Shown here one piece after another: positions 3,444 through 15,848 of a DNA stretch of 64,000 nucleotides. The stretch lies in contig NZ_CVLB01000003.1 of the NCBI RefSeq assembly GCF_001049755.1, forward strand, positions 248,001 through 312,000, given 5' to 3'. The notes below the pieces were generated by a model. It was not told where the DNA came from, ran no database searches, and saw only the letters and a list, made by a program, of their open reading frames with translations. Source of the DNA: Brachyspira suanatina (lineage in GTDB: Bacteria; Spirochaetota; Brachyspiria; Brachyspirales; Brachyspiraceae). The translations under genes and the position numbers were made by a program. Each line of letters opens with the position of its first letter. Position 1 is the first letter of the stretch.

Positions 3444-4085
3444 TTATTTATTTTTTATTTTTAGATATTGTATTTTTCGCTTATATTCCTTACTTCTATC
3501 TTCAAAGCCATCATTCTCTATAGGTATAGATTTATCAGGTGGTTTTGGAATATATGCATCATTATTTTGATCTCTAACATTTGTTTCTGTATAAGCAGGA
3601 AATGTTACTAATGATATTTCATGCAAAGTAATTTCTTCTACTTCACGAATAGGCATTCCATATTCTTTTAATGTTTCTTTATTATCAAGCCAATTTTCTC
3701 TTACTACTTTGAAGCCGAAAGACATTTGCTTTATATCGCCTCTGTCTACGCTTTCTTTTAAATCTCTTGCCCAAGTAGTATTTGGTAAAGAAACTTCAAA
3801 ATATAAGCCCTTATCATCTTCTCTTAAAATTAGTGTGCCAGCACTTTTTCTGCCAAGTACATATCTTGTGTCATGTCCCCAAAGACATACTTGATCATTT
3901 TCTAATAATGATTTAGTGAAAGCACCTCTGTTTATACGCTCTCTAAATAAATCACCATAAAGAGGCTCACTTAAAGAATTATATACAATAGCATAGCCTC
4001 TTAATTTAAGAGGTTCACCTTCGGTGTCTGTGCTTTTTTGGATATCAATATCTATACTTCTAATTTCATTATTATTCACTGGCAT
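3444..4085 (-). CDS. HK97-family prohead protease
   Basis: This 213-residue U35-type serine protease removes the capsid delta domain during head maturation. Visible features are the LRGYAIVYNSLSEP start of the core, the catalytic His in GHD (H71), and the catalytic Ser in IKQMSFGF (S122); ITLHEISLVTFPAY is the conserved substrate-site strand. The charged C-terminal tail after about residue 180 is probably removed by self-cleavage. The gene overlaps the end of the portal gene by 14 bases. Confidence 0.92.
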   Translation of the reverse strand: MPVNNNEIRSIDIDIQKSTDTEGEPLKLRGYAIVYNSLSEPLYGDLFRERINRGAFTKSLLENDQVCLWGHDTRYVLGRKSAGTLILREDDKGLYFEVSLPNTTWARDLKESVDRGDIKQMSFGFKVVRENWLDNKETLKEYGMPIREVEEITLHEISLVTFPAYTETNVRDQNNDAYIPKPPDKSIPIENDGFEDRSKEYKRKIQYLKIKNK

Positions 4086-5355
4086 TTTTATCTTCCTCTT
4101 CTAATTTTTTATTTTTATCATTATTATTTATATTAAAGTTTTGATTGTCTTCAGTTTCTTTAGGTTCTTCATAAACTGTTTTTATTGGTCTTATTTGTTG
4201 AGAAACGAAATACTCATCTCCATATTCATCATCTACTTCATTAAGGTTTTCTTGTCTTCTCCATTCATTTCTAGTAAGAACACCATTATTCAATTTGATT
4301 TGATTCGCTTGCTGTCTTGTAAGAGTATCGCCTCTCAAAAGTCCGTCCAAATTAAACTCTATATTATATTTTTTTCTTTCTGATTCGCTTAATAAATAGC
4401 CGTTTAATGCTTTTTCTATACGAACACACCAAGGTCTTATGGTATGAGTAACAAACTCTATACTTTGATGTTCTATATTATTATTTGTACTTCTGCTTAA
4501 ATCACCGATTAAATGAGGAGGTACACGGAACACTCGGCATATTTCTTCTACTGAAAATCTTCTGCTTTCTAAAAACTGAGCATCTGACAAATTCATTGTC
4601 ACAGGCTCTATTTTCATTCCTTCTTCAAGAACAACTATACCTTTTTCCCAAGCCTCTCTGAAGCTTTCTTTTAAGTTTTTTTTAGCATCTGAACTTAATT
4701 TTTGCGGATGTGAAATAATTGGAACTTTTTTAACGCCATTAGAAAAGAAATCTAATGCAAAATTATCTTGATAAAGTCCTGTAGTTATTTGCTTACGCAT
4801 CATAGCTATTGGACTGTATCCTATCACTCCGTTCCATCCAAGTCCTGCTATATGCATAACTTGTGCTGGAGATAAAGTGATTATTCCTCCATCATCAGAG
4901 TATTCAAACATTTTATCACCATTTGAATCTCTATATACTTTAATTTTATTAGAATCTATTAAATAAAGTTCTGTTACTCTGTTAAAATTATCTCTTACTA
5001 CTTCTACAAAACCGTTGCCTTGAAGAAGTATTTGGGTGATTAGACTCTCTATAAATGATACGGATGTGCATTCTTCATTAGGAGAGTCATGCAATAATTT
5101 ATATAAAGAATGATCTTTAGCTTTTACTTTATTATTTCCATTTATTTTATATACAAAAAGAGGTAAAGTTGCTATTGTTTCTGCTATAACTCTCACGCAT
5201 GCAAATACTGTAGAGAAAGTTAAAGCAGTATTAGGATTGACTGCTGATAGAGTTTTATCATTTTGAATTGATAAAAAATTACTTCCATCTATATGGCTAA
5301 AATCAGGAAATAGCCATTTTTTTATATAATTCCTTATATTTTTTATTACAGACAT
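4072..5355 (-). CDS. HK97-family phage portal protein
   Basis: This 427-residue portal protein forms the dodecameric DNA gate of the capsid. The conserved portal features are easy to see: TFSTVFACVRVIAETIATLP near residues 48-67, then HSLYKLLHDSPNEECTS, the ILLQGNGFVEVVRD strand, HIAGLGWNG, and FSVEEICRVFRVPPHLIGD, the hallmark of this family. An acidic, Asn-rich tail of about 45 residues ends the protein. It is the first gene of the leftward head operon, and no strong Shine-Dalgarno is seen upstream of this ATG. Confidence 0.95.
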   Translation of the reverse strand: MSVIKNIRNYIKKWLFPDFSHIDGSNFLSIQNDKTLSAVNPNTALTFSTVFACVRVIAETIATLPLFVYKINGNNKVKAKDHSLYKLLHDSPNEECTSVSFIESLITQILLQGNGFVEVVRDNFNRVTELYLIDSNKIKVYRDSNGDKMFEYSDDGGIITLSPAQVMHIAGLGWNGVIGYSPIAMMRKQITTGLYQDNFALDFFSNGVKKVPIISHPQKLSSDAKKNLKESFREAWEKGIVVLEEGMKIEPVTMNLSDAQFLESRRFSVEEICRVFRVPPHLIGDLSRSTNNNIEHQSIEFVTHTIRPWCVRIEKALNGYLLSESERKKYNIEFNLDGLLRGDTLTRQQANQIKLNNGVLTRNEWRRQENLNEVDDEYGDEYFVSQQIRPIKTVYEEPKETEDNQNFNINNNDKNKKLEEEDKNASE

Positions 5356-5450
5356 ATAATATATAAAAAAATATAAGGAAATATAAGTTTTATATTGTTA
5401 TTTTATTACAAGAACTTAAAGTCCCACTGTGTGCCTTTATTTTTACTTAT

Positions 5451-5513
5451 TACGGTATTTGTATATACTGTATTTTTAGTTTTTTATTATTGATTTTTTA
5501 TCTTTTTAAGATA
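5451..5513. promoter_or_regulatory. two palindromes between portal and restriction-modification genes
   Basis: The divergent gap (5356-5552) holds two inverted repeats: TACGGTAT (5451-5458) facing ATACTGTA (5465-5472), and the perfect TATCTT-TTT-AAGATA (5499-5513). The second lies just upstream of a TATAAT (5517-5522) on the plus strand. They look like operators that could control the divergent head operon or the restriction-modification pair. No regulator of the C-protein type is encoded next to them. Confidence 0.4.
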
Positions 5514-5552
5514 GAATATAATATATGTCGATATGTAGAGGGTAAAAATCTA

Positions 5553-6509
5553 ATGTTATATAAAGATTTTGAAGAGAGTAAGAATAATATTATTGCTAAA
5601 AGAAATAAAATATGGATTAAAAATAGAATATTTCCTAAATGGATAAATCCAGAAGAAATAGATTTGGAGCAATTTTTTACAAAAGAAGATACTGCTAAAT
5701 ATTGCTACAATAATCTATTATCTTTTTTAGACAAAGAAAAAATAGATATATCAAACTATACTTTTGTTGAACCTTCAGCTGGTAATGGTGCTTTTTTTAA
5801 TTTATTAGATTCAAAAAATAAAATAGGATTAGATTTAATGCCTTTATCTGATGGTATATTGGAACAAGATTTTTTACTATGGTCGCCTGATGATTTGACT
5901 AAAAAGTATATATTTATAGGTAATCCTCCATTTGGTTACAGGGCTTGGCTTGCTTTAGCTTTTATGAACTCAGCAGCACAATATGCTGATTATATAGGAT
6001 TTATATTGCCTATGTCATTTCAGAGTGATGGAAAAGGTTCTCCAAAAAATAGAGTAAACAATATGAAGTTAGTACATTCTGAAATACTTCCAAATGATAG
6101 TTTTTATAGATTAGATAATAAAAAAATTACTGTGAATGCTTTATGGCAAATATGGAAAAAAGGGAATAGTGATTTAGAAGAAAAGAAGTCTTGTGATGAT
6201 TGGGTAGATATATTTACTGTTGATACTAGAAAAGAAAGAACTTGCGGAATAGAAAAAATGAATAATGCTGATTTTTTTCTTCAAAGAACATATTATACAC
6301 AACAGCCTAAATTAGTAAAAGATTTTTCAGAAGTAAAATATGTATGCGGATATGGTATTATAATAAAAAAATCTAAAAAAAAAGTTGAAAATATATTAAA
6401 CAGTATAAATTGGAATGATTACAGTAATTTGGCAACGCATAATTGCAGACATATAAGTATGTATCATATAGAAAAAGCCTTAATAGATAGGGGAATTGTT
6501 AATGCCTGA
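5553..6509 (+). CDS. DNA adenine methyltransferase (type II-like)
   Basis: The AdoMet-binding motif I is FVEPSAGNGAFF and the catalytic motif IV is GNPPFGY, the N6-adenine (or N4-cytosine) type. QFFTKEDTAKYCYNNL at the N-terminus is the usual substrate-side 'F-T-..A' opening of this class. I place the start at 5553 (MLYKDFEESK), preceded by AGAGGG; an upstream in-frame ATG at 5490 lacks a ribosome site. The stop overlaps the next gene by 8 bases, forming a two-gene restriction-modification operon. It is unusual to find it wedged between the portal and terminase genes of a prophage. Confidence 0.85.
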   Translation: MLYKDFEESKNNIIAKRNKIWIKNRIFPKWINPEEIDLEQFFTKEDTAKYCYNNLLSFLDKEKIDISNYTFVEPSAGNGAFFNLLDSKNKIGLDLMPLSDGILEQDFLLWSPDDLTKKYIFIGNPPFGYRAWLALAFMNSAAQYADYIGFILPMSFQSDGKGSPKNRVNNMKLVHSEILPNDSFYRLDNKKITVNALWQIWKKGNSDLEEKKSCDDWVDIFTVDTRKERTCGIEKMNNADFFLQRTYYTQQPKLVKDFSEVKYVCGYGIIIKKSKKKVENILNSINWNDYSNLATHNCRHISMYHIEKALIDRGIVNA

Positions 6510-7032
6510 TAGTATTTATAGTGAATTATTTTTACATATTTTAGAAAAATATCATAATCATTCTAAATGGGATAATGCCGAATTTAAAAAAATAAAAACA
6601 CTTTCTAATACAGGTGTAGGAAGTGTTGGTCAGGATTTTATTCATGAATTATGTAATAAATTAAATATCAATTCTAAACTTTCTAAAAAGTCTACAGATG
6701 TAAGAGATAAAAATGCATATGATATAGAAATAGAAAATATTGATTTTGAGATAAAAACTGCAACTGAAGATACAAATTTTAATTTTCAATTTAACCATAT
6801 AAGATATCATAGAAAATATGAGGCTATAATTTGTTTAGGTGTCTCTCCAGATGATTTATATTTTAATATATGGTCTAAGTCTGATATTTTAACAGGTAAG
6901 GCAGGTAATTTAGTTAGTATGGAAAAAGGAGCAAATGCTTCTTATAAACTTACAAAATCTAAAAAATCATTATATAAAATAAATGAATTTGAAAATATAT
7001 TATTAAGTTTTATCAATAATTTCAAGAAATAA
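6502..7032 (+). CDS. type II restriction endonuclease, PD-(D/E)xK fold
   Basis: This 176-residue protein is translated from an ATG at 6502 (AGGGGA just upstream) that overlaps the methyltransferase stop. A likely PD-(D/E)xK active site is visible: D in KNAYDIEIENIDF and E-x-K in FEIKTATED, after a helix with VGQDFIHELCNKL. The small size and direct linkage to a methyltransferase make it the cognate restriction enzyme. The recognition site cannot be read from the sequence. No separate controller gene is present. I see the motif; the enzyme identity is inferred. Confidence 0.7.
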   Translation: MPDSIYSELFLHILEKYHNHSKWDNAEFKKIKTLSNTGVGSVGQDFIHELCNKLNINSKLSKKSTDVRDKNAYDIEIENIDFEIKTATEDTNFNFQFNHIRYHRKYEAIICLGVSPDDLYFNIWSKSDILTGKAGNLVSMEKGANASYKLTKSKKSLYKINEFENILLSFINNFKK

Positions 7033-7052
7033 TTTCCAATAACAACTTTCCT

Positions 7053-7130
7053 AACCAGACGACTGTCTGCCTATATCGAAAAAGCTCCTGAATTATTTTT
7101 TTTACGCCATAGGCGGACATTTGTCTAGTT
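7053..7130. repeat. imperfect inverted repeat between restriction and terminase genes
   Basis: A 22-base arm (7053-7074, containing TGTCTGCCTAT) faces its near complement (7109-7130, containing ATAGGCGGACA) across a 34-base loop; 18 of 22 positions pair. Its higher GC stands out from the surroundings. It could be a structured terminator or a scar of insertion of the restriction-modification cassette. Confidence 0.5.
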
Positions 7131-7195
7131 ATAAAATATTATATTACTTATTATTAATGTAGATTTTTAACTAAATTATAATCTCAGGAGTATAA

Positions 7196-7645
7196 ATGCC
7201 CGATAAAGCCAAAAAAGCCCCAAAAAATGCCCAAAATAAGCCAAAAAAAGCCGTTAAAATACCAAATCCTGCTAAAAGCATGCCTACGGCACCAGAATAT
7301 TTTTGTGGGTATTCTTTAAAAAAATGGAAAGAACTTGCTCCTATTTTTGCTGAAAAAAATATGCTTGGAGATGCCGATTTATCAGCATTTGAACTTTTAT
7401 GTCTGCATTATGGTGATGCTATGAATCTTTATGAAGCTATGATTAATGAAGGCGGTTCTATAGCTGGATATTTAGCAGGTAAAAACTCTCAAACAATGGG
7501 CGAATATTTAGCATATCATAAAGCTATAACAGCATATACTAAAATGCTTACCGAGTTCGGTTTAACTCCTGCTTCTAAAAAGAAAGTTCCTGCACCTGAC
7601 ACTATAGAAGAGGATGATCCGCTTGAAAAAATGATAAATGGTTAA
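7196..7645 (+). CDS. phage terminase small subunit, P27 family
   Basis: This 149-residue protein has a very Lys/Pro-rich N-terminus (residues 1-30) followed by the P27 core: W-K-ELAPIFAEKNMLGDADLSAFELLCLHYGDA, then GEYLAYHKAITAYTKMLTEFGLTPASKKKV. The spacing and the final 'GL.P.S..K' are the family signature. It recognises phage DNA and starts packaging together with the large subunit encoded 2 bases further on. CAGGAG precedes the ATG. Confidence 0.9.
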   Translation: MPDKAKKAPKNAQNKPKKAVKIPNPAKSMPTAPEYFCGYSLKKWKELAPIFAEKNMLGDADLSAFELLCLHYGDAMNLYEAMINEGGSIAGYLAGKNSQTMGEYLAYHKAITAYTKMLTEFGLTPASKKKVPAPDTIEEDDPLEKMING

Positions 7646-7647
7646 AT

Positions 7648-9423
7648 ATGATGTATACTTATGAAGAATATATCAATAAAGTTATAAATAAAGAATTACC
7701 AGTCTGTCAAGCTGCTTTTTTATCTGTGAAAAGGCATTTGGACGATATAGAAAAATCAAAAAATAATGATTATCCTTTTTATTTTGATGAGAACGAAGCT
7801 AAACGTCCTATTACTTTTATTCAATCTTTAGTACATACGAAAGGAGAATGGGCAAATCATAATATTATACTAGAGCCTTGGGAACAGTTTATAATAGCAA
7901 GTATATTCGGATGGAGAAGAAAGGAAAATAAACTCAGACGTTACAAAAAAGCATATGTTCAAGTGAGCAGGAAGAATGGAAAAACTACTTTTGCATCTGG
8001 CATTGGTAATTATTGTTTTTTCTGCGACAGTCCTGCAGAGGCTGGAGTTGAAATATACTATATAGCTACTAAAAAAGATCAAGCGAAAATTGCATGGAGT
8101 GAAAGCGAAAGGCAAATAAGAAAAGCAAAAGCTCTTAATAAAGAAGCGATTACATATAAACAAACTTCTACAATTACAAAGAAAAAAGATACTGCCTCAA
8201 AATCCAAACCGCTTGGACAGGACAGCAATACTGAAGACGGATTAAATCCGCATTTAGTTATAGTAGATGAATACCATGCTCATCCTGATAATGAATTATT
8301 AAATGTTCTTGAATCTGGAATGGGAGCTAGAAGGCAGCCTCTTATATTTATAATTACTACGGCTGGATTTGATAAATCTTCAGTATGTTTTTCTGAATAT
8401 GAATATGCAAAGCAAGTATTACAAGGTTCATTAAATAATGATGAGTATTTTACTATAATATACGAGCCTGATAACATCAATGATATTTGGGTATTTATGT
8501 CTGAATATAAAGAAAAGTTAAATAAAAATGAAGATGTTTCAAAGCAGGAAGAATTAATAAATAAAATTATTTTTCAAGCTAATCCTAATATAAATGTTTC
8601 TGTAAAAGACAGTTACCTAAAATCTAGGCTTTTAGAAGGACTAGATAAACCTATTCAAAGAACAGATATTCTTACAAAGAACTTGAATGTTTGGACACAG
8701 GCAAGCGAGGTTTGGATTTCTTCTGACAGGTGGCTTAAATCTTATTCACATCAAAATATAAATATAAATGAATTAAAAGGCAGGAAGGCATGTATTGGTT
8801 TAGATTTGGCAACGACAAGAGATATAGCGGCTTATGTTTTATGTTTTGATTCTATTGATAATGGTCCATATATACTTCTGCCACGATTCTTTATGCCTCA
8901 AGAAAATATCAGGCAGCGTTCTAAAGAGGACAGAGTACCTTATGAATTATGGGCTTCTCAAGGTTTAATTACTTTAACAAGCGGTGATATAATAGATTTT
9001 GATGTTATAGAATCTTCAATCTTAAATGATGCTGCATATTTTGAAATTATAGAAATAGCTTATGACCCTTGGAAAGCTATTGAAATAGTAACACACTTAG
9101 AAAGCGAAGGCTTCAAAATGGAACAGGTTAGGCAGTCTTTTGCTGTTGGAGGTTTATCTGAAGGAACTTCTTTATTTGAAAAAACTATAGATGAACGAAA
9201 ACTTTTACATGGTAATAATGCAGTTCTTAATTGGATGATAAGCTGCTGTGAAGTAAAAACAGATGGTAGAGATAATTATCTTCCTGTAAAACCTGACAGA
9301 AGAAGATCATATAAAAGAATAGATGGTGTTGTAGCCTCTATTATGGCTCTTCATAGAGTGATTAAAAATCATTTTGAAGATACGACAAGTATTTATGAAA
9401 GCGAAGGTGTATTTACCTTATAA
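7648..9423 (+). CDS. phage terminase large subunit
   Basis: This 591-residue packaging motor has ATPase and nuclease halves. The Walker A-like motif is SRKNGKTT (residues 107-114), Walker B is LVIVDEYH (D207/E208), and a TTAGFD coupling motif follows at about residue 237. The RNase H-like nuclease begins at CIGLDLATTRD with Asp386, and AYDPWKA carries a second acidic ligand. Length is normal for the Terminase_1/BcepC6B-type family. It begins ATGATG just after the small subunit, with no separate ribosome site, so it is probably translationally coupled. Confidence 0.94.
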   Translation: MMYTYEEYINKVINKELPVCQAAFLSVKRHLDDIEKSKNNDYPFYFDENEAKRPITFIQSLVHTKGEWANHNIILEPWEQFIIASIFGWRRKENKLRRYKKAYVQVSRKNGKTTFASGIGNYCFFCDSPAEAGVEIYYIATKKDQAKIAWSESERQIRKAKALNKEAITYKQTSTITKKKDTASKSKPLGQDSNTEDGLNPHLVIVDEYHAHPDNELLNVLESGMGARRQPLIFIITTAGFDKSSVCFSEYEYAKQVLQGSLNNDEYFTIIYEPDNINDIWVFMSEYKEKLNKNEDVSKQEELINKIIFQANPNINVSVKDSYLKSRLLEGLDKPIQRTDILTKNLNVWTQASEVWISSDRWLKSYSHQNININELKGRKACIGLDLATTRDIAAYVLCFDSIDNGPYILLPRFFMPQENIRQRSKEDRVPYELWASQGLITLTSGDIIDFDVIESSILNDAAYFEIIEIAYDPWKAIEIVTHLESEGFKMEQVRQSFAVGGLSEGTSLFEKTIDERKLLHGNNAVLNWMISCCEVKTDGRDNYLPVKPDRRRSYKRIDGVVASIMALHRVIKNHFEDTTSIYESEGVFTL

Positions 9424-9426
9424 TCT

Positions 9427-9460
9427 GGATACTTTATATATTATTATATATAAAGTATCC
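9427..9460. terminator. bidirectional hairpin between terminase and small-gene array
   Basis: GGATACTTTATATA (9427-9440) pairs perfectly with 9447-9460 over a six-base loop. It lies between two convergent transcription units and probably ends both. Confidence 0.7.
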
Positions 9461-9482
9461 ATTTAAATAATTAAAAAAAGGT

Positions 9483-9890
9483 TTACAGTACTTTCAAATT
9501 GTCTATTTCATATTTTATTTTATTCATATATCTAGTTAATATTTTGTTAATTTTATTTCTAATTGTATCTTTTTCTAATATTTTAGATGATAACTTTAAT
9601 AATACTGCATAATGTGCCATAAACTCTTTGTTTGTTTCATCACTTATATAAGTAGAGTAAACTGGATAATTGCATACAGTTTTATTATCTTTAATGTGAG
9701 CTCCTATAACTTCATCGTATCTTCTTTTTCCATTTATATAATATTCTATATATACTGCCGCATCATATTCTCGTATGTCTGCAAATAAATTATTATTATT
9801 TAATAATTTTCTTATTTCTATTGTAGCTTCATTATTATTATTTTTTTCTAATGCTTCTAATTGCTTATGATTTTTTGATTTTTTATTCAT
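9483..9890 (-). CDS. array gene, hypothetical (135 aa)
   Basis: Last gene of the leftward small-gene array. It is a paralogue of the 10030-10404 product: both start MNK, then KNNNNEAT-IR-LL, and end with a helical segment (LLKLSS..L.K...NKIN.IL..Y). The family is not recognised. It is Asn/Lys-rich, without signal peptide or membrane segment, probably cytoplasmic. It is preceded by the array's conserved palindromic leader and AGAGGT-type ribosome site, which favours independent expression. Confidence 0.65.
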   Translation of the reverse strand: MNKKSKNHKQLEALEKNNNNEATIEIRKLLNNNNLFADIREYDAAVYIEYYINGKRRYDEVIGAHIKDNKTVCNYPVYSTYISDETNKEFMAHYAVLLKLSSKILEKDTIRNKINKILTRYMNKIKYEIDNLKVL

Positions 9891-9931
9891 TTTTAATTAC
9901 CTCTTTTTAATTAATGATTTATGGTGTGACA

Positions 9932-9978
9932 ATAACTCTTTGTCGAAAGATAGCAAGTCATTTTCTCTAAAAAGTTAT
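9932..9978 (-). repeat. array leader palindrome, copy 1
   Basis: Divergent copy. ATAACT at 9932 faces AGTTAT at 9973, around the invariant GATAGCAAGT core (9949-9958). The inner arms (TTGTCG / TCTCTA) no longer pair. It precedes the 9483-9890 gene. Confidence 0.75.
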
Positions 9979-9987
9979 ATTTTTTAT

Positions 9988-10016
9988 ATACAGCTTTATA
10001 TATAATAAAGCTGTAT
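9988..10016 (-). terminator. terminator of array gene 10030-10404
   Basis: ATACAGCTTTAT (9988-9999) and ATAAAGCTGTAT (10005-10016) form a 12-bp hairpin followed by AT-rich sequence on the minus strand. Unlike most other terminators in the array it lacks the GGGGC stem. Confidence 0.6.
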
Positions 10017-10029
10017 ATTCATTGTTATC

Positions 10030-10404
10030 TTAAGCAATATTTAAATTATTTATTTCTGCCTCTGTTTTTGTTATATAATAACCTAATAATTCATTTATTT
10101 TTGTTTGCATTTCTTTTCTCATCATTCTTGATGATAATTCTAAAAAATCTGCATAATTATTTATAATATCATCGCTTGTATTAGTATCTACTCTCATGCT
10201 ATATACTCTGAAAGAAGATATTATTTTTCCATCTCTATCTTTATCAGTTCTTACTATCTCCTCATTATTAAAATTAACTTCTGCATTATATCTATTCAAA
10301 TCAACATCTAATTTATCATTACTTAATAATTCCCTTATTGCTTTTGTAGCCTCTTTATTATTGTTTTTTATTATTGCTAATTCTTTTTTTAATTGTTTAT
10401 TCAT
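10030..10404 (-). CDS. array gene, hypothetical (124 aa)
   Basis: Paralogue of the neighbouring 135-residue array protein: same N-terminal KNNN-EATKAIRELL block, a divergent beta-like middle part, and a C-terminal helix (FLELSSRMMRKEMQTKINELL). No known domain is recognised. The divergence in the middle with conserved ends suggests a binding surface that changes between copies. It has its own leader palindrome (10443-10490), AGAGGT ribosome site and terminator. Confidence 0.65.
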   Translation of the reverse strand: MNKQLKKELAIIKNNNKEATKAIRELLSNDKLDVDLNRYNAEVNFNNEEIVRTDKDRDGKIISSFRVYSMRVDTNTSDDIINNYADFLELSSRMMRKEMQTKINELLGYYITKTEAEINNLNIA

Positions 10405-10442
10405 TTTTAATTACCTCTTTTTTAATTATTTATGTGATGACA

Positions 10443-10490
10443 ATAACTCTGTTTGGAAAGATAGCAAGTTCTTTTCCCAAAAAAAGTTAT
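10443..10490 (-). repeat. array leader palindrome, copy 2
   Basis: ATAACT...AGTTAT outer arms and a fully pairing inner arm set (TTTGG / CCAAA, different bases from copy 3 but still complementary) surround GATAGCAAGT (10460-10469). It precedes the 10030-10404 gene. Confidence 0.85.
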
Positions 10491-10525
10491 TTTTTTCTCA
10501 CTTATTTATTAAAATTAAGGCAAAA

Positions 10526-10551
10526 AATAATGGGCTTTTAAGCCCATTATT
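10526..10551 (-). terminator. terminator of array gene 10566-10775
   Basis: AATAATGGGC / GCCCATTATT hairpin followed by a T-rich stretch on the minus strand. Confidence 0.75.
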
Positions 10552-10565
10552 TTTCAATATCATAA

Positions 10566-10775
10566 TTAAATATTATTATTATTTAATATGTCACATGCCT
10601 CTATATTCTTTTTTAATACTTCTATTAAATGTTCATAATCTTTTATAGATTCTTTATCTTCTTCAAAAAAAGATAATAACAAATTAAATAAATAGCTAGC
10701 GTTTTCATATCTGCATTCTCTTAATGCCTTAGTTGCCTCACCGTATATTCTAAAATATCTCTCTAATTGAATCAT
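10566..10775 (-). CDS. array gene, 69-aa two-helix protein family
   Basis: This belongs to a four-member family within the array (also at 10929, 11294 and 11527). All begin MI-L and share Y-A---F..LL..LE/FE..K..I..Y..L...I..NI..C. The predicted content is almost entirely helical, like a single TPR-type hairpin pair. No function is known. This copy has a conserved Cys near the end (ACDIL). It is preceded by AGAGGT and leader palindrome copy 3. Confidence 0.65.
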   Translation of the reverse strand: MIQLERYFRIYGEATKALRECRYENASYLFNLLLSFFEEDKESIKDYEHLIEVLKKNIEACDILNNNNI

Positions 10776-10813
10776 TTTTAATTACCTCTTTTTTAATTAT
10801 TTATGTGATGACA

Positions 10814-10861
10814 ATAACTCTGTTGCGAAAGATAGCAAGTTCTTTTCCGCAAAAAAGTTAT
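10814..10861 (-). repeat. array leader palindrome, copy 3
   Basis: The most complete copy. ATAACTCTGTTGCG pairs with CGCAAAAAAGTTAT at 12 of 14 positions around GATAGCAAGT (10831-10840). Outer GTGA/TCAC bases extend the stem further. Confidence 0.9.
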
Positions 10862-10895
10862 TTTTTCTCACTTATTTATTAAAATTAAGGCAAAA

Positions 10896-10921
10896 AATAA
10901 GGGGCTTTAATACCCCTTATT
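10896..10921 (-). terminator. terminator of array gene 10929-11135
   Basis: AATAAGGGG / CCCCTTATT hairpin with an 8-base loop, followed on the minus strand by a T-run. The same sequence is found, cut in half, at 11511-11519. Confidence 0.75.
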
Positions 10922-10928
10922 TTTACTA

Positions 10929-11135
10929 TTAAAGTCCTTTCATAAATAGCTTACATCCTGCTATATTATTATTAATGCTTTCTTTTAACTCTTCATAATC
11001 TTCTATAACATTTTTATTATTTTCTAGCATTTCAAGTAAATATTCAAATTGATCTGCAGCACCATCATATTCTTTTTTTTCTACTAAATCTAAAGCCTTT
11101 TCATAAATTATAAAAAACATTCTTAATTTAATCAT
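10929..11135 (-). CDS. array gene, 68-aa two-helix family (identical to 11527-11733)
   Basis: The 68-residue product, starting MIKLRMFFIIYEKALDLVEK, is identical at protein level to the product at 11527-11733; I see one silent base difference (near 10988). Gene plus leader forms a direct repeat of about 338 bp (10913-11250 and 11511-11848). It is a helical, acidic, soluble protein of unknown role, with its own ribosome site and leader palindrome. Confidence 0.65.
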   Translation of the reverse strand: MIKLRMFFIIYEKALDLVEKKEYDGAADQFEYLLEMLENNKNVIEDYEELKESINNNIAGCKLFMKGL

Positions 11136-11176
11136 TTTTAAATACCTCTTTTTTAATTATTTATTATGGTGTGACA

Positions 11177-11224
11177 ATAACTCTGTTCCAAAAGATAGCA
11201 AGTTCTTTTCCGCAAAAAAGTTAT
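11177..11224 (-). repeat. array leader palindrome, copy 4
   Basis: Outer ATAACT/AGTTAT arms and the GATAGCAAGT core (11194-11203) are intact. The inner arms do not pair: the left arm is of one type (TTCC) and the right arm of the copy-3 type (CCGCAA). Confidence 0.85.
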
Positions 11225-11262
11225 TTTTTCTCACTTATTTATTAAAATTAAGGTAAAAAAAT

Positions 11263-11280
11263 AGGTGGTATGCACCACCT
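11263..11280 (-). terminator. hairpin at end of array gene 11294-11500
   Basis: AGGTGGT (11263-11269) pairs with ACCACCT (11274-11280). On the minus strand it is followed by a run of seven T, a classic intrinsic terminator. Confidence 0.8.
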
Positions 11281-11293
11281 CTTTTTTTGTTAA

Positions 11294-11500
11294 TTAAAAA
11301 AAGTTTTCTAGCTTATTGCACAAATCTATATTGTTTTCTATAGTTAATTTTAAATCATCATAATTATTTATATATTCTTTATGATCTTCTAGTAATGTTA
11401 ATAATACTTTATATTGGAATGAAGCTTCATTATAATTCTTATCTTCAAATGCTTTAAATGCTTTTTTATACAAAGTAAAAAGTTCTTTTAAGTCAATCAT
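11294..11500 (-). CDS. array gene, 68-aa two-helix family, leader lost
   Basis: This member of the 68-residue family begins MIDLKELFTLYKKAFKAF. It is the only array gene of its family without the palindromic leader. Only 26 bases separate it from the 11527 gene, and they include the first half of that gene's terminator (AAAATAAGGGG) fused directly to the AAAATTAAAAATG start region. A recombination or deletion appears to have removed one leader. It may be co-transcribed with 11527-11733, since the terminator is halved. Confidence 0.65.
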   Translation of the reverse strand: MIDLKELFTLYKKAFKAFEDKNYNEASFQYKVLLTLLEDHKEYINNYDDLKLTIENNIDLCNKLENFF

Positions 11501-11526
11501 TTTTAATTTTCCCCTTATTTTTACTA

Positions 11527-11733
11527 TTAAAGTCCTTTCATAAATAGCTTACATCCTGCTATATTATTATTAATGCTTTCTTTTAATTCTTCATAATCTT
11601 CTATAACATTTTTATTATTTTCTAGCATTTCAAGTAAATATTCAAATTGATCTGCAGCACCATCATATTCTTTTTTTTCTACTAAATCTAAAGCCTTTTC
11701 ATAAATTATAAAAAACATTCTTAATTTAATCAT
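11527..11733 (-). CDS. array gene, 68-aa two-helix family (identical to 10929-11135)
   Basis: Second copy of the identical 68-residue protein. The duplicated stretch runs from the terminator remnant through the gene and the whole leader. Near-total nucleotide identity shows that the duplication is recent. The fold prediction is the same as for the first copy: two or more amphipathic helices and no known catalytic motif. The downstream terminator is truncated, so transcription may continue into 11294-11500. Confidence 0.65.
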   Translation of the reverse strand: MIKLRMFFIIYEKALDLVEKKEYDGAADQFEYLLEMLENNKNVIEDYEELKESINNNIAGCKLFMKGL

Positions 11734-11774
11734 TTTTAATTACCTCTTTTTTAATTATTTATTATGGTGTGACA

Positions 11775-11822
11775 ATAACTCTGTTCCAAAAGATAGCAAG
11801 TTCTTTTCCGCAAAAAAGTTAT
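11775..11822 (-). repeat. array leader palindrome, copy 5
   Basis: Duplicate of copy 4 with the same mismatched inner arms and the same core (11792-11801). It lies in front of the 11527-11733 gene. Confidence 0.85.
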
Positions 11823-11861
11823 TTTTTCTCACTTATTTATTAAAAATTAAGGCAAAAAATA

Positions 11862-11879
11862 AGGGGCTTTAATGCCCCT
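11862..11879 (-). terminator. terminator of array gene 11894-12208
   Basis: AGGGGC / GCCCCT hairpin followed on the minus strand by TTATTTTTT. Confidence 0.7.
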
Positions 11880-11893
11880 CATTTTTTATAAAA

Positions 11894-12208
11894 TTACATT
11901 CTATACAATATATAATTAGGACCTTTTGCCATTATTTTTTCTTTGAAAAATAGATAATTTTTATTTTTAATAAAATCTACCAATTCCTTAGTAGTGAACT
12001 CTTTAAATAGATTTACTATTACTTTTATATTAAGATCAATTATAAGTTCTTTTTTTTCTTTATCATATCTCCTTGAAAAAAAACCTCCTTCAAGTGAAAA
12101 GCTAGCATCTTTTATTATAAATTTAGCTATAGCCTCAGATGAAGTTTTAGAAAAATTAGTGTTTTCTAATATTTTTTTAGTAATACTATCTAATGTAAAA
12201 GTTGTCAT
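11894..12208 (-). CDS. array gene, hypothetical (104 aa)
   Basis: This 104-residue protein starts MTTFTLDSITKKILENTNFS. It shares a layout with the next array product (12370-12672): an N-terminal helix that recurs as S.EA.A.FIIKD / SEKAAELLAEHFVIKE, a short beta hairpin, then D.I..N.KEF.T....I..K..L. The two are probably distant paralogues. No known domain is recognised. It has its own leader palindrome and a TAGAGG-type ribosome site. Confidence 0.65.
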   Translation of the reverse strand: MTTFTLDSITKKILENTNFSKTSSEAIAKFIIKDASFSLEGGFFSRRYDKEKKELIIDLNIKVIVNLFKEFTTKELVDFIKNKNYLFFKEKIMAKGPNYILYRM

Positions 12209-12245
12209 TTTATTTACCTCTTTTTTAATTATTTATGTGATGACA

Positions 12246-12293
12246 ATAACTCTGTTGCGAAAGATAGCAAGTTCTTTTCCGTAAAAAAGTTAT
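12246..12293 (-). repeat. array leader palindrome, copy 6
   Basis: TTGCG arm opposite CGTAA (one mismatch), GATAGCAAGT core at 12263-12272, outer ATAACT/AGTTAT intact. Confidence 0.85.
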
Positions 12294-12332
12294 TTTTTCT
12301 CACTTATTTATTAAAATTAAGGCAAAAAAATA

Positions 12333-12349
12333 AGGGGCTTAATGCCCCT
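12333..12349 (-). terminator. terminator of array gene 12370-12672
   Basis: AGGGGC / GCCCCT hairpin with a 5-base loop and a T-rich tail on the minus strand. Confidence 0.7.
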
Positions 12350-12369
12350 CATTTAATATAATAATTATA

Positions 12370-12672
12370 TTATTGTTTCATACAGCATATTATTAAATCA
12401 TCATCACTAGTTAATATTTCATCTCCATATACTTTTTTCTTTCCTTCTAAATATTTAATAAAACCCTCTGTATCAAACTCTTTATAATTATCTCTTATAA
12501 TATCATAGGCTATAGATACTTCATATTCATTATTTTTATTTAATGAAGCTAAAATTGGTAAACTTGATCCTTGCTCTTTTATTACGAAATGTTCTGCTAA
12601 TAATTCAGCTGCTTTTTCTGAGTAGTATTCTTTTAATCCTTCTTTTATATCATTCAAACTAAAATTAACCAT
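12370..12672 (-). CDS. array gene, hypothetical (100 aa)
   Basis: This 100-residue protein starts MVNFSLNDIKEGLKEYYSEK. Its arrangement matches the 11894-12208 product (see the shared KEF-T motif: NYKEFDTEGFIKYLEGKK versus LFKEFTTKELVDFIKNKN), so the two form a second paralogue pair in the array. It is cytoplasmic and acidic, function unknown, with leader palindrome copy 7 upstream. Confidence 0.65.
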   Translation of the reverse strand: MVNFSLNDIKEGLKEYYSEKAAELLAEHFVIKEQGSSLPILASLNKNNEYEVSIAYDIIRDNYKEFDTEGFIKYLEGKKKVYGDEILTSDDDLIICCMKQ

Positions 12673-12712
12673 TTTTAATTACCTCTTATTTTTAATTATT
12701 TATGTGATGACA

Positions 12713-12759
12713 ATAACTCTGTTACAAAAGATAGCAAGTTCTTTTCCCAAAAAAGTTAT
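12713..12759 (-). repeat. array leader palindrome, copy 7
   Basis: Outer ATAACT/AGTTAT intact, core GATAGCAAGT at 12730-12739, inner arms TTACA versus CCCAA only partly pairing. Confidence 0.85.
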
Positions 12760-12797
12760 TTTTTTCTCACTTATTTATTAAAATTAAGGCAAAAAAT

Positions 12798-12818
12798 AGG
12801 ACTGTCTTTGGCAGCCCT
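12798..12818 (-). terminator. terminator of array gene 12837-13073
   Basis: AGGACTG / CAGCCCT hairpin followed on the minus strand by ATTTTTT. The stem sequence differs from the GGGGC type used by most units. Confidence 0.7.
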
Positions 12819-12836
12819 ACAAAAAATTATTTTTCT

Positions 12837-13073
12837 TTATCTTTTCTTTGACAGTTGATTATATAATCTTTTATATAATCTTAAATCATTAGTCATACTT
12901 GAATAATATTTAAATTTCCCTTCTTTAGTAAAAACTATACAGTTCACATTTTTTTTATGTAAAGCATATTTTTCTCTATCAAATACTATAATACTGTTTT
13001 TATTTTCTAATATTAATAAATTATTACCTAATCTTTTTTTGGCATCTTCTAATGTTCTTATTTTATCCTGCAT
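12837..13073 (-). CDS. array gene, hypothetical (78 aa)
   Basis: This 78-residue basic protein begins MQDKIRTLEDAKKRLGNN. It lies 13 bases after the 13087-13398 gene and has a strong GGAGG ribosome site, so these two share one leader and form the only two-gene cassette in the array. The middle (SIIVFDREKYALHKKNVNCIVF) suggests a small beta sheet. No family is recognised. Confidence 0.6.
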   Translation of the reverse strand: MQDKIRTLEDAKKRLGNNLLILENKNSIIVFDREKYALHKKNVNCIVFTKEGKFKYYSSMTNDLRLYKRLYNQLSKKR

Positions 13074-13086
13074 ATATAACCTCCAT

Positions 13087-13398
13087 TTATTTAATCATAA
13101 TGGTTTCTAATATTTTCATTATATTACCATGATTTTTTGTTCTTACCATTTTAGACATTAACAACAATAAATCTCCATAGACATCTCTATCTGTTATATC
13201 AACATCACCTATGCAATTTTGACTTGGAATGTGGTAGTTTAACGTATAAAACTTTCCATAGCAGAATGTAAAATCGGCAATATGTTTTCCGTATGCAAAT
13301 ATTTTTATTTGATTACTAAGAACTTCTATTGTTAAATGATCTGTATCAAATAATTGATTTAATATAAACTCTACATTTTTTATTACTTCTTTATTCAT
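13087..13398 (-). CDS. array gene, hypothetical (103 aa), first in array
   Basis: This 103-residue protein starts MNKEVIKNVEFILNQLFDTD. It is promoter-proximal in the array and lies directly behind leader palindrome copy 8. It has a mixed alpha/beta pattern, with a central FAYGKHIADFTFCYGKFYTLNY segment in which three aromatic-Gly pairs recur. No membrane segment or catalytic motif is seen. Function unknown. Confidence 0.6.
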   Translation of the reverse strand: MNKEVIKNVEFILNQLFDTDHLTIEVLSNQIKIFAYGKHIADFTFCYGKFYTLNYHIPSQNCIGDVDITDRDVYGDLLLLMSKMVRTKNHGNIMKILETIMIK

Positions 13399-13439
13399 TT
13401 TTAATTACCTCTTCTTTAATTATTTATTATGGTGTGACA

Positions 13440-13486
13440 ATAACTCTGTTCCAAAAGATAGCAAGTTCTTTTATGCGAAAAAGTCC
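13440..13486 (-). repeat. array leader palindrome, copy 8 (outermost, right arm degenerate)
   Basis: The left half (ATAACTCTGTTCC) and the GATAGCAAGT core (13457-13466) match the other copies. The right arm has changed (ATGCGAAAAAGTCC), and the sequence beyond it is unique. This marks the upstream end of the array. A TTTACAC / GTGTAAA inverted repeat follows at 13492-13522. Confidence 0.7.
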
Positions 13487-13579
13487 TATTTTTTACACCC
13501 AAAATATTAAATTGTGTGTAAAGATAATTTTTATTATTTATAAATACAATAATTATAATAATAATTTAGAGGAGATATT

Positions 13580-13849
13580 ATGGATTCAAGAAATAGTATA
13601 TCAATTAATTTTAATTAGGATTTGTACAGATGGATTGTTAAGATGGTAAAAAATAATAAAGCAGATCCTTTCAATTATTCTAATGCCACATTTGGAGGTT
13701 TTGTGCAGGCTTGTGTTGCAAAAGCTAAAAAAGAATACGAAGAAAAAGGCAGTGAAATGCAGAAATTAAAAAAAAGAGTAGAAGAATTAGAAGAAACTGT
13801 AAAAAGAATTGATGAATTAGAAAATAAAATTAAAGAATTAGAAAAATGA
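13580..13849 (+). pseudogene. coiled-coil phage protein interrupted by an in-frame TAG
   Basis: GAGGAG precedes an ATG at 13580 that encodes MDSRNSISINFN and then a TAG (13616-13618). The same frame continues as DLYRWIVKMVKNNKADPFNY and runs on to a Leu/Glu-rich coiled coil ending at 13849. The first part reads naturally into the second, so the amber codon is probably a recent nonsense change (one base from GAG or CAG). A shorter product could start at ATG 13643 but has no good ribosome site. Other genes nearby also use TAG as a normal stop, for example at 14494, so general TAG recoding is unlikely. Confidence 0.55.
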
Positions 13850-14023
13850 CATTGATACCCCCTAATAAAAAAGTTATCGCCATGCATAAAAGACTCCCCA
13901 CTCGTTGCACCGATTGAAAGCCTGTAGAGATTTTACCCACCCCCACCAAACAAATATAAATCAGTTATAATTTTATTTAATGAATAAAAGTTAAAAAAAA
14001 ATTATTTTTTTATTAAATTACTA

Positions 14024-14793: not shown

Positions 14794-14922
14794 TTAATTA
14801 CTATATTCTAAAATAAGTTTTTTAATATACTTACGTACACTCATGTTCTTTTCTTTAGCTAATCTTTTTAATAGCTTATATTCTTTAGATTTGAATCTGC
14901 AAACTATTAATTGTTTTTTCAT
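14794..14922 (-). CDS. 42-aa ribbon-helix-helix protein coupled to integrase
   Basis: The ATG at 14922 overlaps the integrase stop (TAATG). The 42-residue product starts MKKQLIVCRFKSKEYKLLKR, continues LAKEKNMSVRKYIKKLILEY and ends at 14794. It matches a minimal CopG/Arc ribbon-helix-helix unit: a beta strand with basic residues and two helices with the 'S.R.YI..LI' pattern. Coupling to the recombinase suggests an excisionase or auto-repressor role. GGAGG lies just before the overlap, within the integrase gene. Confidence 0.65.
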   Translation of the reverse strand: MKKQLIVCRFKSKEYKLLKRLAKEKNMSVRKYIKKLILEYSN

Positions 14923-15848
14923 TATTCTACCTCCAAACTTTTTAAGTATATGCCTGTTATAGCTATACTGCTATGATTTAATGCCTGTCTAATAAGTTCT
15001 ATATCTTTGGTTTGTTTGTATAGGGTAACAGCAAAATAATGCCTTATATCATGTATAGAGTAGGCGGCTTTTATTTTACCTTGATTATACAAACGCTTTG
15101 AACTTCTATAAAAAATGTTTCTTATTACTTCAGAGCTTTTATTTCTGAAAGGATTATTAAAAGAAAGATTATTCTGTTTTAATAATTTAATAACTTTGTC
15201 AGTAACTTTCCAGCTTATTTCCTTGCCTTTTGAATATGAATAATATTTGTTATTTCTTATTTCTAGTTTAGGTAAAGCACCAACACGCACACCGCATTCC
15301 ATTATAAAAATGATGGCCACTTTTATGAGAGGATCAGATATATCTTTAATTATTAATTCAATTTCTTTTTTAGTTGGCACTTCCAAACGTTTCTTATTTT
15401 TTACAGGCGGACGAGTTTTTGTACCTCGAAAAGGATTTTTCATAAATGGATATCTTCTTTCTAAAAATGAAAAGAAAGAAGAGCAGGAAGAAACTAATGC
15501 ACGTATACTTAAATTAGAAAGCTCACTAGAATTAACTTCTGTTATAAAATCATCAGCTTCTCTTGCTTTAATAAATAAAATATTTTTATTATTCATTTTG
15601 CAGTATTCCTCTAGTTTATTAAGTCCGTTTTTATACTGTCTTTTTGTGTGATTGCTTTTTGTTTTTGAACATTGCTTAAAAAAGTTTTCTTTTTCTGTTT
15701 CATAATCTATCTGTTTAATAAGCTGCTCTTCTTTCATATAGTCAAGTATATTCAAGTAGTTAGCTTGTTTGTAAAGAAGTTCTGCTTGCTCTTGGCTTAT
15801 TATATTATTATTTTGTAATATTAATTCTTTATATTTTTTAGAAGCCAT
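14922..15848 (-). CDS. tyrosine recombinase / phage integrase
   Basis: This 308-residue integrase has all catalytic residues in order: Arg188 (CGVRVGAL), His266 and Arg269 (SIHDIRHYFAV), His292 (LNHSSIAITG) and nucleophile Tyr301 (GIYLKS). The N-terminal SAM-like core-binding domain spans about residues 55-140 (HTKRQYKNGLNKLEEYC). It lacks the extra helix typical of integron integrases. It probably integrates the prophage; the neighbouring palindrome array makes a second substrate thinkable. Confidence 0.9.
   Translation of the reverse strand: MASKKYKELILQNNNIISQEQAELLYKQANYLNILDYMKEEQLIKQIDYETEKENFFKQCSKTKSNHTKRQYKNGLNKLEEYCKMNNKNILFIKAREADDFITEVNSSELSNLSIRALVSSCSSFFSFLERRYPFMKNPFRGTKTRPPVKNKKRLEVPTKKEIELIIKDISDPLIKVAIIFIMECGVRVGALPKLEIRNNKYYSYSKGKEISWKVTDKVIKLLKQNNLSFNNPFRNKSSEVIRNIFYRSSKRLYNQGKIKAAYSIHDIRHYFAVTLYKQTKDIELIRQALNHSSIAITGIYLKSLEVE

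Follow-up and report, generated by a model that had tools for sequence, protein, structure and literature searches.

Small genes behind a shared promoter-like leader form a variable but collinear array in Brachyspira prophages

A contiguous array of leader-tagged genes

We analyzed a 64-kb stretch of the Brachyspira suanatina genome (referred to as the window here), focusing on a row of small genes in the prophage that it contains. Ten small open reading frames (ORFs) on the minus strand fill positions 9483 to 13398, between the 3′ end of the gene for the terminase large subunit (TerL; 7648..9423, plus strand), which bounds the array in the complete loci, and a divergent small gene, p88, that starts at 13580. 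From upstream to downstream, the genes are named A, B, C, D, E′, F, E, G, H and I. The sequence GATAGCAAGT occurs eight times without mismatch (at 9949, 10460, 10831, 11194, 11792, 12263, 12730 and 13457), with no further mismatch-free copy anywhere else in the window. It is the center of a 103-nucleotide (nt) leader family, whose eight copies are 72 to 100% identical and stand in front of eight of the ten genes, as a preliminary description of this stretch had noted. Ten terminator-like hairpins lie between 9400 and 14100, versus 0.6 expected from shuffled sequences, which bears out the earlier view that most gene ends carry a private terminator. The proposed cassette plan of leader, gene and terminator, with a control element common to the units, is thus supported. 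A weight-matrix scan for the leader core over the prophage part of the window found the eight array sites and none besides them above the shuffled background.

The array is headed by cassette A (13087..13398; 103 amino acids [aa]; minus strand, like the other genes, cores and terminators of the array), which has an ortholog in the related locus L169. Its leader core (AAAAGAACTTGCTATCTTTTGGAACAGAGTTATTGTCAC; 13434..13472) contains a promoter-like TTGCTA/16 nt/TATTGT sequence and lacks the left arm of the palindrome discussed below. Gene B (12837..13073; 78 aa) follows A and is leaderless here, while its counterpart in locus L041 has a leader of its own; a terminator after A and B lies at 12796..12820. 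Cassettes C (12370..12672; 100 aa) and D (11894..12208; 104 aa), which show a weak likeness to each other (16 to 20% identity), are preceded by cores at 12707..12745 and 12240..12278 and followed by terminators at 12328..12354 and 11853..11888, respectively. Next come cassette E′ (11527..11733; 68 aa; core at 11769..11807), gene F (11294..11500; 68 aa), which has lost its leader, is fused behind E′ and is followed by a terminator at 11263..11280, and cassette E (10929..11135; 68 aa; core at 11171..11209). A 300-nt stretch comprising gene and leader is duplicated at 99% identity between E′ and E, so that their 68-aa products are identical. The row ends with cassette G (10566..10775; 69 aa; core at 10808..10846; terminator at 10521..10556), cassette H (10030..10404; 124 aa; core at 10437..10475; hairpin at 9986..10018, on the plus strand in the tool listing) and cassette I (9483..9890; 135 aa; core at 9926..9964), an H paralogue with 39% identity.

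Genes E, F and G are paralogous, as are H and I; C and D, with J and K from related arrays, are weakly so, and A and B stand apart. The earlier picture of nearly identical leaders before different gene families holds for the leaders over 103 nt, but the families are few and E′ and E encode the same protein. The median ratio of nonsynonymous to synonymous substitution rates (dN/dS) of the cassettes ranges from 0.14 to 0.68 (0.55 for C and 0.68 for D), compared with 0.08 for TerL and 0.10 for a nearby tyrosine recombinase. This indicates purifying but relaxed selection and argues that the cassettes are real, fast-evolving genes. Their products had no notable match in Pfam, PHROG or solved structures and none in the defence library PADLOC; no named relatives were found, and within the collections searched the genes were confined to these phages. 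The predicted structure of H had a predicted local distance difference test (pLDDT) score of 52 and was not used.

The leader is conserved as a two-block element, not as a palindrome

To define the conserved part of the leader, we aligned 62 leaders (60 unique), with some from genome G005 included here and in the hairpin folding. Across this alignment, AAAAGAACTTGCTATCTTT-N4-ACAGAGTTATTGTCAT is nearly invariant, its pattern is asymmetric, and the information content forms two peaks with variable positions in between. Many versions of the left arm exist (TAACTTTTTTGCGG, TTATAGTTTCGCAGG, GTTGTATTTTTGGAGG, GTTTTATTTTCTGCGG and others). Among the unique leaders of related phages, the right arm AGTTAT is present in 41 of 41 and the left arm ATAACT in only 21; the other 20 lack it, and so does the head leader of the window (13457), which has TAGGACT in its place. 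The conserved feature is an asymmetric two-block element at fixed spacing, and not the ATAACT..AGTTAT palindrome that had been put forward as the conserved unit. A gapped nhmmer search returned the same leaders as a search allowing substitutions only, and no core indel variant was seen.

Between orthologous leaders, the p-distance is 0.059 in the core versus 0.290 in the adjacent left arm; given this much slower change, selection must hold the core. The difference also bears on the idea that the repeats simply reflect the recent tandem duplication of a single ancestral gene unit and have no role other than that of the original promoter. Such an origin would account for the paralogous families E/F/G and H/I, and perhaps C/D, but it does not predict a core that evolves far more slowly than its neighboring arm and is common to unrelated gene families, and we regard it as highly improbable.

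The leader could alternatively act as an RNA element of the 5′ untranslated region, i.e., a riboswitch, an attenuator or a protein-binding hairpin. When the leaders were folded, as the preliminary description had suggested, about half of them could form the hairpin, down to −16.5 kcal/mol, and its inner pairs AAAAG..CTTTT are almost invariant. However, the z-scores were near 0 in leaders with alternative left arms, and each pair of the outer stem (columns 4 to 10) was broken in 5 to 15 of 30 sequences without any compensation. Pair counting in these 30 leaders gave no covariation above that of shuffled sequences, the outer-stem pairs never being changed on both sides. The leader matched no Rfam family, an upstream promoter is not conserved, and the sequence upstream of the head leaders is unrelated. 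We consider an RNA function of this kind very unlikely and have abandoned the earlier RNA-switch reading for want of covariation and of an Rfam family.

The core ends ∼35 to 45 nt upstream of the AGAGG/ATG start, and TTGCTA-16 nt-TATTGT retains the main bases of a −35 and a −10 element. We would therefore read AAAAGAACTTGCTATCTTT-N4-ACAGAGTTATTGTCAT as a −35-like TTGCTA, a 16-nt spacer and a −10-like TATTGT, its promoter activity being suggested by conservation. Some observations weigh against so simple a reading. Agreement with the sigma-70 consensus is limited to 8 of 12 positions, and a promoter scan misses TTGCTA/TATTGT, although the same scan returns promoter counts at the level of shuffled sequence and is powerless in such AT-rich DNA. 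In addition, the invariant stretch of ∼39 nt exceeds the needs of a bare promoter, which makes an additional binder or function likely.

Arrays vary in content but keep their place

A leader match (E ≤ 0.001) was found in 15 of 26 genomes of the genus, several of the matches being merely short and weak, and in ten viral contig records. Among the INPHARED phages there was no relative, either by DNA or by H protein, and a check by selected terms of two papers on Brachyspira phages (PMC8845278 and PMC3163572) found no array of this kind described. Most of the related Brachyspira prophages with a p88 gene have homologous arrays of 1 to 10 genes, always at a single locus, and in complete loci the arrangement TerL-array-p88 is constant. 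The genome of the window itself holds a ninth leader copy on a short contig (C31). This contig matches the window exactly from the end of H, across I and TerL, into the gene for the terminase small subunit (TerS) and diverges beyond, which points to a second prophage of recombined structure or to an assembly effect.

In array-less relatives, the interval from TerL to the recombinase is occupied by different cargo: a methyltransferase-like gene behind a run of CTGGT repeats in L218 and L281, a large ATPase-like protein in G010 and other genes in G023. The CTGGT run may make the methyltransferase-like gene phase variable. In L219, the array is emptied to a remnant of I. Since other cargo occupies the same spot in these relatives, the locus is a site for accessory genes. 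A phage of a sister genus (G065, L264:4120-5047) has two genes of the H family next to a TerL of 65% identity, each behind a different 55-nt leader that is 96% identical between the two genes and contains TTGACT. The scheme is thus more durable than any one leader sequence.

For the comparison of cassette order and turnover, the loci of G005 (L171 to L174) were left out, because the array junction of L172 (9285-9357, oriented) contains the Illumina adapter AGATCGGAAGAGCGT and is an assembly artefact; the apparent splitting of arrays over several places in that genome was rejected for the same reason. The remaining arrays read ABCDEFEGHI, CDEYH, BFEYHI, ABCDXGH, JKCDEH, CDEI, FEYI, FGH, EH (twice), EY, E and H (twice). 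With the duplicated E′ set aside, the eight longest fit a single line, which none of 20,000 random orderings did. Comparing cassettes among relatives, as had been proposed, hence revealed a variable number in an unvarying order.

Leader-to-leader recombination probably accounts for the observed changes

Two events of turnover could be reconstructed. L041 (..Y H I) and L177 (..Y I) are sister phages with 94 to 99% identity in their shared genes. They differ here by exactly one cassette, and the leader of I in L177 is a hybrid, with its upstream half from H and its downstream half from I and the switch falling within ∼75 shared nt. The H cassette was deleted between the two by a crossover from leader to leader. 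In the window, the copying of E′ into the position ahead of F cost F its leader, and the AAGGGG ribosome site before F is now supplied by half of a terminator. Allelic exchange is visible as mosaic identity: the window and L038 are 98% identical in E and 85% in C, while the window and L170 are 78% identical in E and 94% in D. Leaders within one array are also more alike (87.9%) than leaders of different arrays (85.1%), a value reached in 1 of 1,000 permutations, but this is a small effect.

Taken together, the fixed order, the leader crossover and the fresh duplication point to homologous recombination between leaders rather than to integron-like insertion, and a leader of ∼75 to 100 nearly identical nt would suffice to explain the data. 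The cassettes had been described as exchangeable; their content indeed varies between 1 and 10 genes, with one deletion and one duplication on record, but their order does not shuffle as it would in an integron.

The competing view holds that the leader is the recombination site of the tyrosine recombinase encoded nearby (14922..15848, minus strand), with an integron-like effect. This protein, the second tyrosine recombinase of the prophage, is XerA/XerC/XerD-like, matches the Pfam integrase family and lies 1 to 6 kb from the array in the carriers with flanking sequence covered. It is not the integrase of the probable left prophage end, the L041/L177 crossover falls inside a leader, and that crossover fits homologous and site-specific recombination alike, which counts against our preference for the former. 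Set against this are the strictly conserved order, a score of only 34.6 bits against the integron integrase profile (NCBIfam integrase_gron; cut-off, 265), the presence of the recombinase in relatives with and without an array, a stem that shows no compensation, and the sufficiency of homologous recombination. Although the preliminary description was correct in placing a tyrosine recombinase here, the enzyme is not integron-type, and we find a site-specific function of the leader quite improbable. The attC-like reading was likewise given up on the evidence of order, integrase profile and uncompensated left arm, the RYYYAAC/GTTRRRY consensus itself not having been scanned for.

The right boundary of the prophage lies at ∼22880, where AAAATTATTATTT, a probable attachment site, recurs at L234:1111, and a separate integrase of 408 aa (L234:1984-3210) adjoins the probable left end; the 14922..15848 recombinase is therefore probably not the main integrase. 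Thus, one prophage carries two tyrosine recombinases, and only the 408-aa one is beside the probable attachment site. The other may have a part in the array, although no observation calls for one.

Candidate regulators of the leaders

The gene p88 (13580..13849, plus strand) is divergent from the array head in the carriers with covered flanks. In relatives it encodes ∼88 aa beginning MDSRN.[IV][ST]INF, with two predicted helices and a coiled coil, whereas the window copy is interrupted by TAG at codon 13 (13616-13618), which is CAG or CAA (glutamine) in most relatives. An AlphaFold2 model has an extended N terminus (pLDDT, 43) and helices at residues 11 to 28 and 35 to 88. Searches of Pfam and PDB gave no match, and a fold search returned nothing; our guess of a ribbon-helix-helix-like start followed by a coiled coil is thus unconfirmed by profiles and fold search. 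Between the array head and p88 lies a palindrome (TTTACACCC..GTGTGTAAA; 13492..13530), a candidate p88 operator, and four types of this palindrome pair with four N-terminal types of p88 (residues 6 and 8: S/S, G/T, S/T and G/S). The pairing suggests that p88 may regulate itself, but linkage alone could also produce it.

This raises the question of whether the leader core serves chiefly as the operator of a single phage regulator, p88 for example, which would shut off all cassettes in the prophage and allow zygotic expression on infection. The divergent position of p88 fits this, as does its frequent breakage in relatives without an array (a frameshift in G015, a missing start in L218, L227 and L233), and there are parallels in p576 and SIRV2 (see below). 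However, the head palindromes vary with the N-terminal types of p88 while the core is identical in all, the large array of the window is paired with an interrupted p88, L219 has an intact p88 with an emptied array, and the ribbon-helix-helix fold was not confirmed. Such an operator function appears rather unlikely. Because the core stays constant across p88 types, p88 is no obvious reader of all leaders, and it was rejected as such.

A sigma-70-like phage protein (16126-16866), which scores above the TIGR02937 cut-off, was also discarded as a dedicated reader, since it occurs in a minority of the phage family, with close orthologs only in G000, G008, G015, G023 and a small number of viral contigs. 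No core-reading regulator common to the arrays was found, the sigma-like protein being absent from most carriers, and this, together with a core that does not change with p88 type, weighs against a regulator-coupled promoter.

Some further features of the prophage were observed. On the 3′ side of p88, GC-richer noncoding DNA (13850-13945; CCCCCTAATAAAAAAGTTATCGCC...CACTCGTTGCACCGATTG...) is conserved in most related phages and is perhaps a packaging site or an RNA; a TAGGGGGTAT-like stretch is also present near the array in L264. A likely restriction-modification pair lies between the portal gene and TerS (5490-7032), the second gene matching REase_II (PADLOC; E = 3e-14). In every relative seen, the terminase genes (4072-9423) have the orientation opposite to that of the portal and capsid genes.

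A probable promoter-tagged accessory locus and its parallels

We consider it fairly probable that the array consists of single-gene cassettes tagged with a promoter/operator, at an accessory locus of a family of temperate Brachyspira siphoviruses, and that these cassettes recombine homologously via their leaders. Each cassette would comprise the two-block promoter/operator, a 5′ region of ∼35 to 45 nt ending in AGAGG, a small ORF and, in most cases, an intrinsic terminator of its own, so that most genes would be transcribed singly, each from its own leader, into what are probably monocistronic transcripts. The core would work in double-stranded form, as a DNA site for RNA polymerase and probably also for a regulator, and not as a hairpin. 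As direct repeats with ∼75 to 100 nearly identical nt, the leaders would allow homologous recombination to delete or duplicate whole cassettes, while exchange with coinfecting or coresident relatives would replace cassette alleles at equal rank; in combination, the two processes would change the content of the array and preserve its order.

The array appears to work most like the PeSLs of T4-type myoviruses and the shared early promoters of SIRV2. PeSLs are composite promoter-terminator motifs between small accessory ORFs (Arbiol 2010 and Comeau 2014, via PMC4503421), and in both systems recombination between repeated intergenic terminator-promoter units would alter the gene set. Here, gene turnover through the repeated unit is evident from the hybrid leader and terminators are present, with the promoter indicated by conservation. 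By their description, PeSLs differ in that our array belongs to a temperate spirochaete siphovirus and has one fixed locus, a constant order and a nearly invariant core of ∼39 nt that departs from the sigma-70 consensus. The early and anti-defence genes of SIRV2-type archaeal viruses have a shared, highly similar regulatory sequence (PMC11065993); small, mostly single and differing genes under similar regulatory sequences, paralogous families and a candidate DNA-binding neighbor are common to both, but the present array is from a bacterial phage and has no known anti-defence member.

Other systems share single features. The SAS and ESAS repeats of cluster K mycobacteriophages contain an imperfect inverted repeat before many small nonstructural genes (PMC3203893 and PMC12699233), and their consensus differs between subclusters, as the leader does in our sister genus; those repeats are spread genome-wide, and the available passages describe no per-gene terminator, whereas the Brachyspira genes form a contiguous array in which the inverted repeat is not conserved. 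In the establishment regulon of plasmid p576, the ribbon-helix-helix repressor Reg acts on operators made of TTATCCC repeats (PMC8708921). There, too, dispersed promoters of one regulon go with a small repressor-type gene that is preceded by its own operator (a candidate regulon and a candidate operator in our case), but p576 is a plasmid, the fold of p88 is unconfirmed and the core is only a candidate p88 site. Like an integron, the array lines up small genes that can be exchanged and has a tyrosine recombinase close by; it differs in its constant order, a promoter-like leader for each gene, the absence of an attC structure and a recombinase that is not IntI.

An accessory and possibly anti-defence function of the products is plausible. 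A bolder version, to which we give limited credence, is an "anti-defence battery", i.e., a one-locus library of fast-evolving single-gene counter-defence or superinfection cassettes with a dedicated promoter/operator that would fire all of them on phage entry and with leaders that diversify the set, the sister-genus phage running this locus behind another leader. As expected of such a set, small genes of unrelated families share one regulatory sequence, but no member known to counter defence was found.

If the favored reading of promoter-tagged cassettes holds, these phages would offer a clear natural example of repeated promoter-terminator units that serve simultaneously as control element and recombination substrate and thereby keep a phage accessory gene set changeable. 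The shared leader may also be a practical tag for finding new accessory, perhaps anti-defence, genes of Brachyspira phages.

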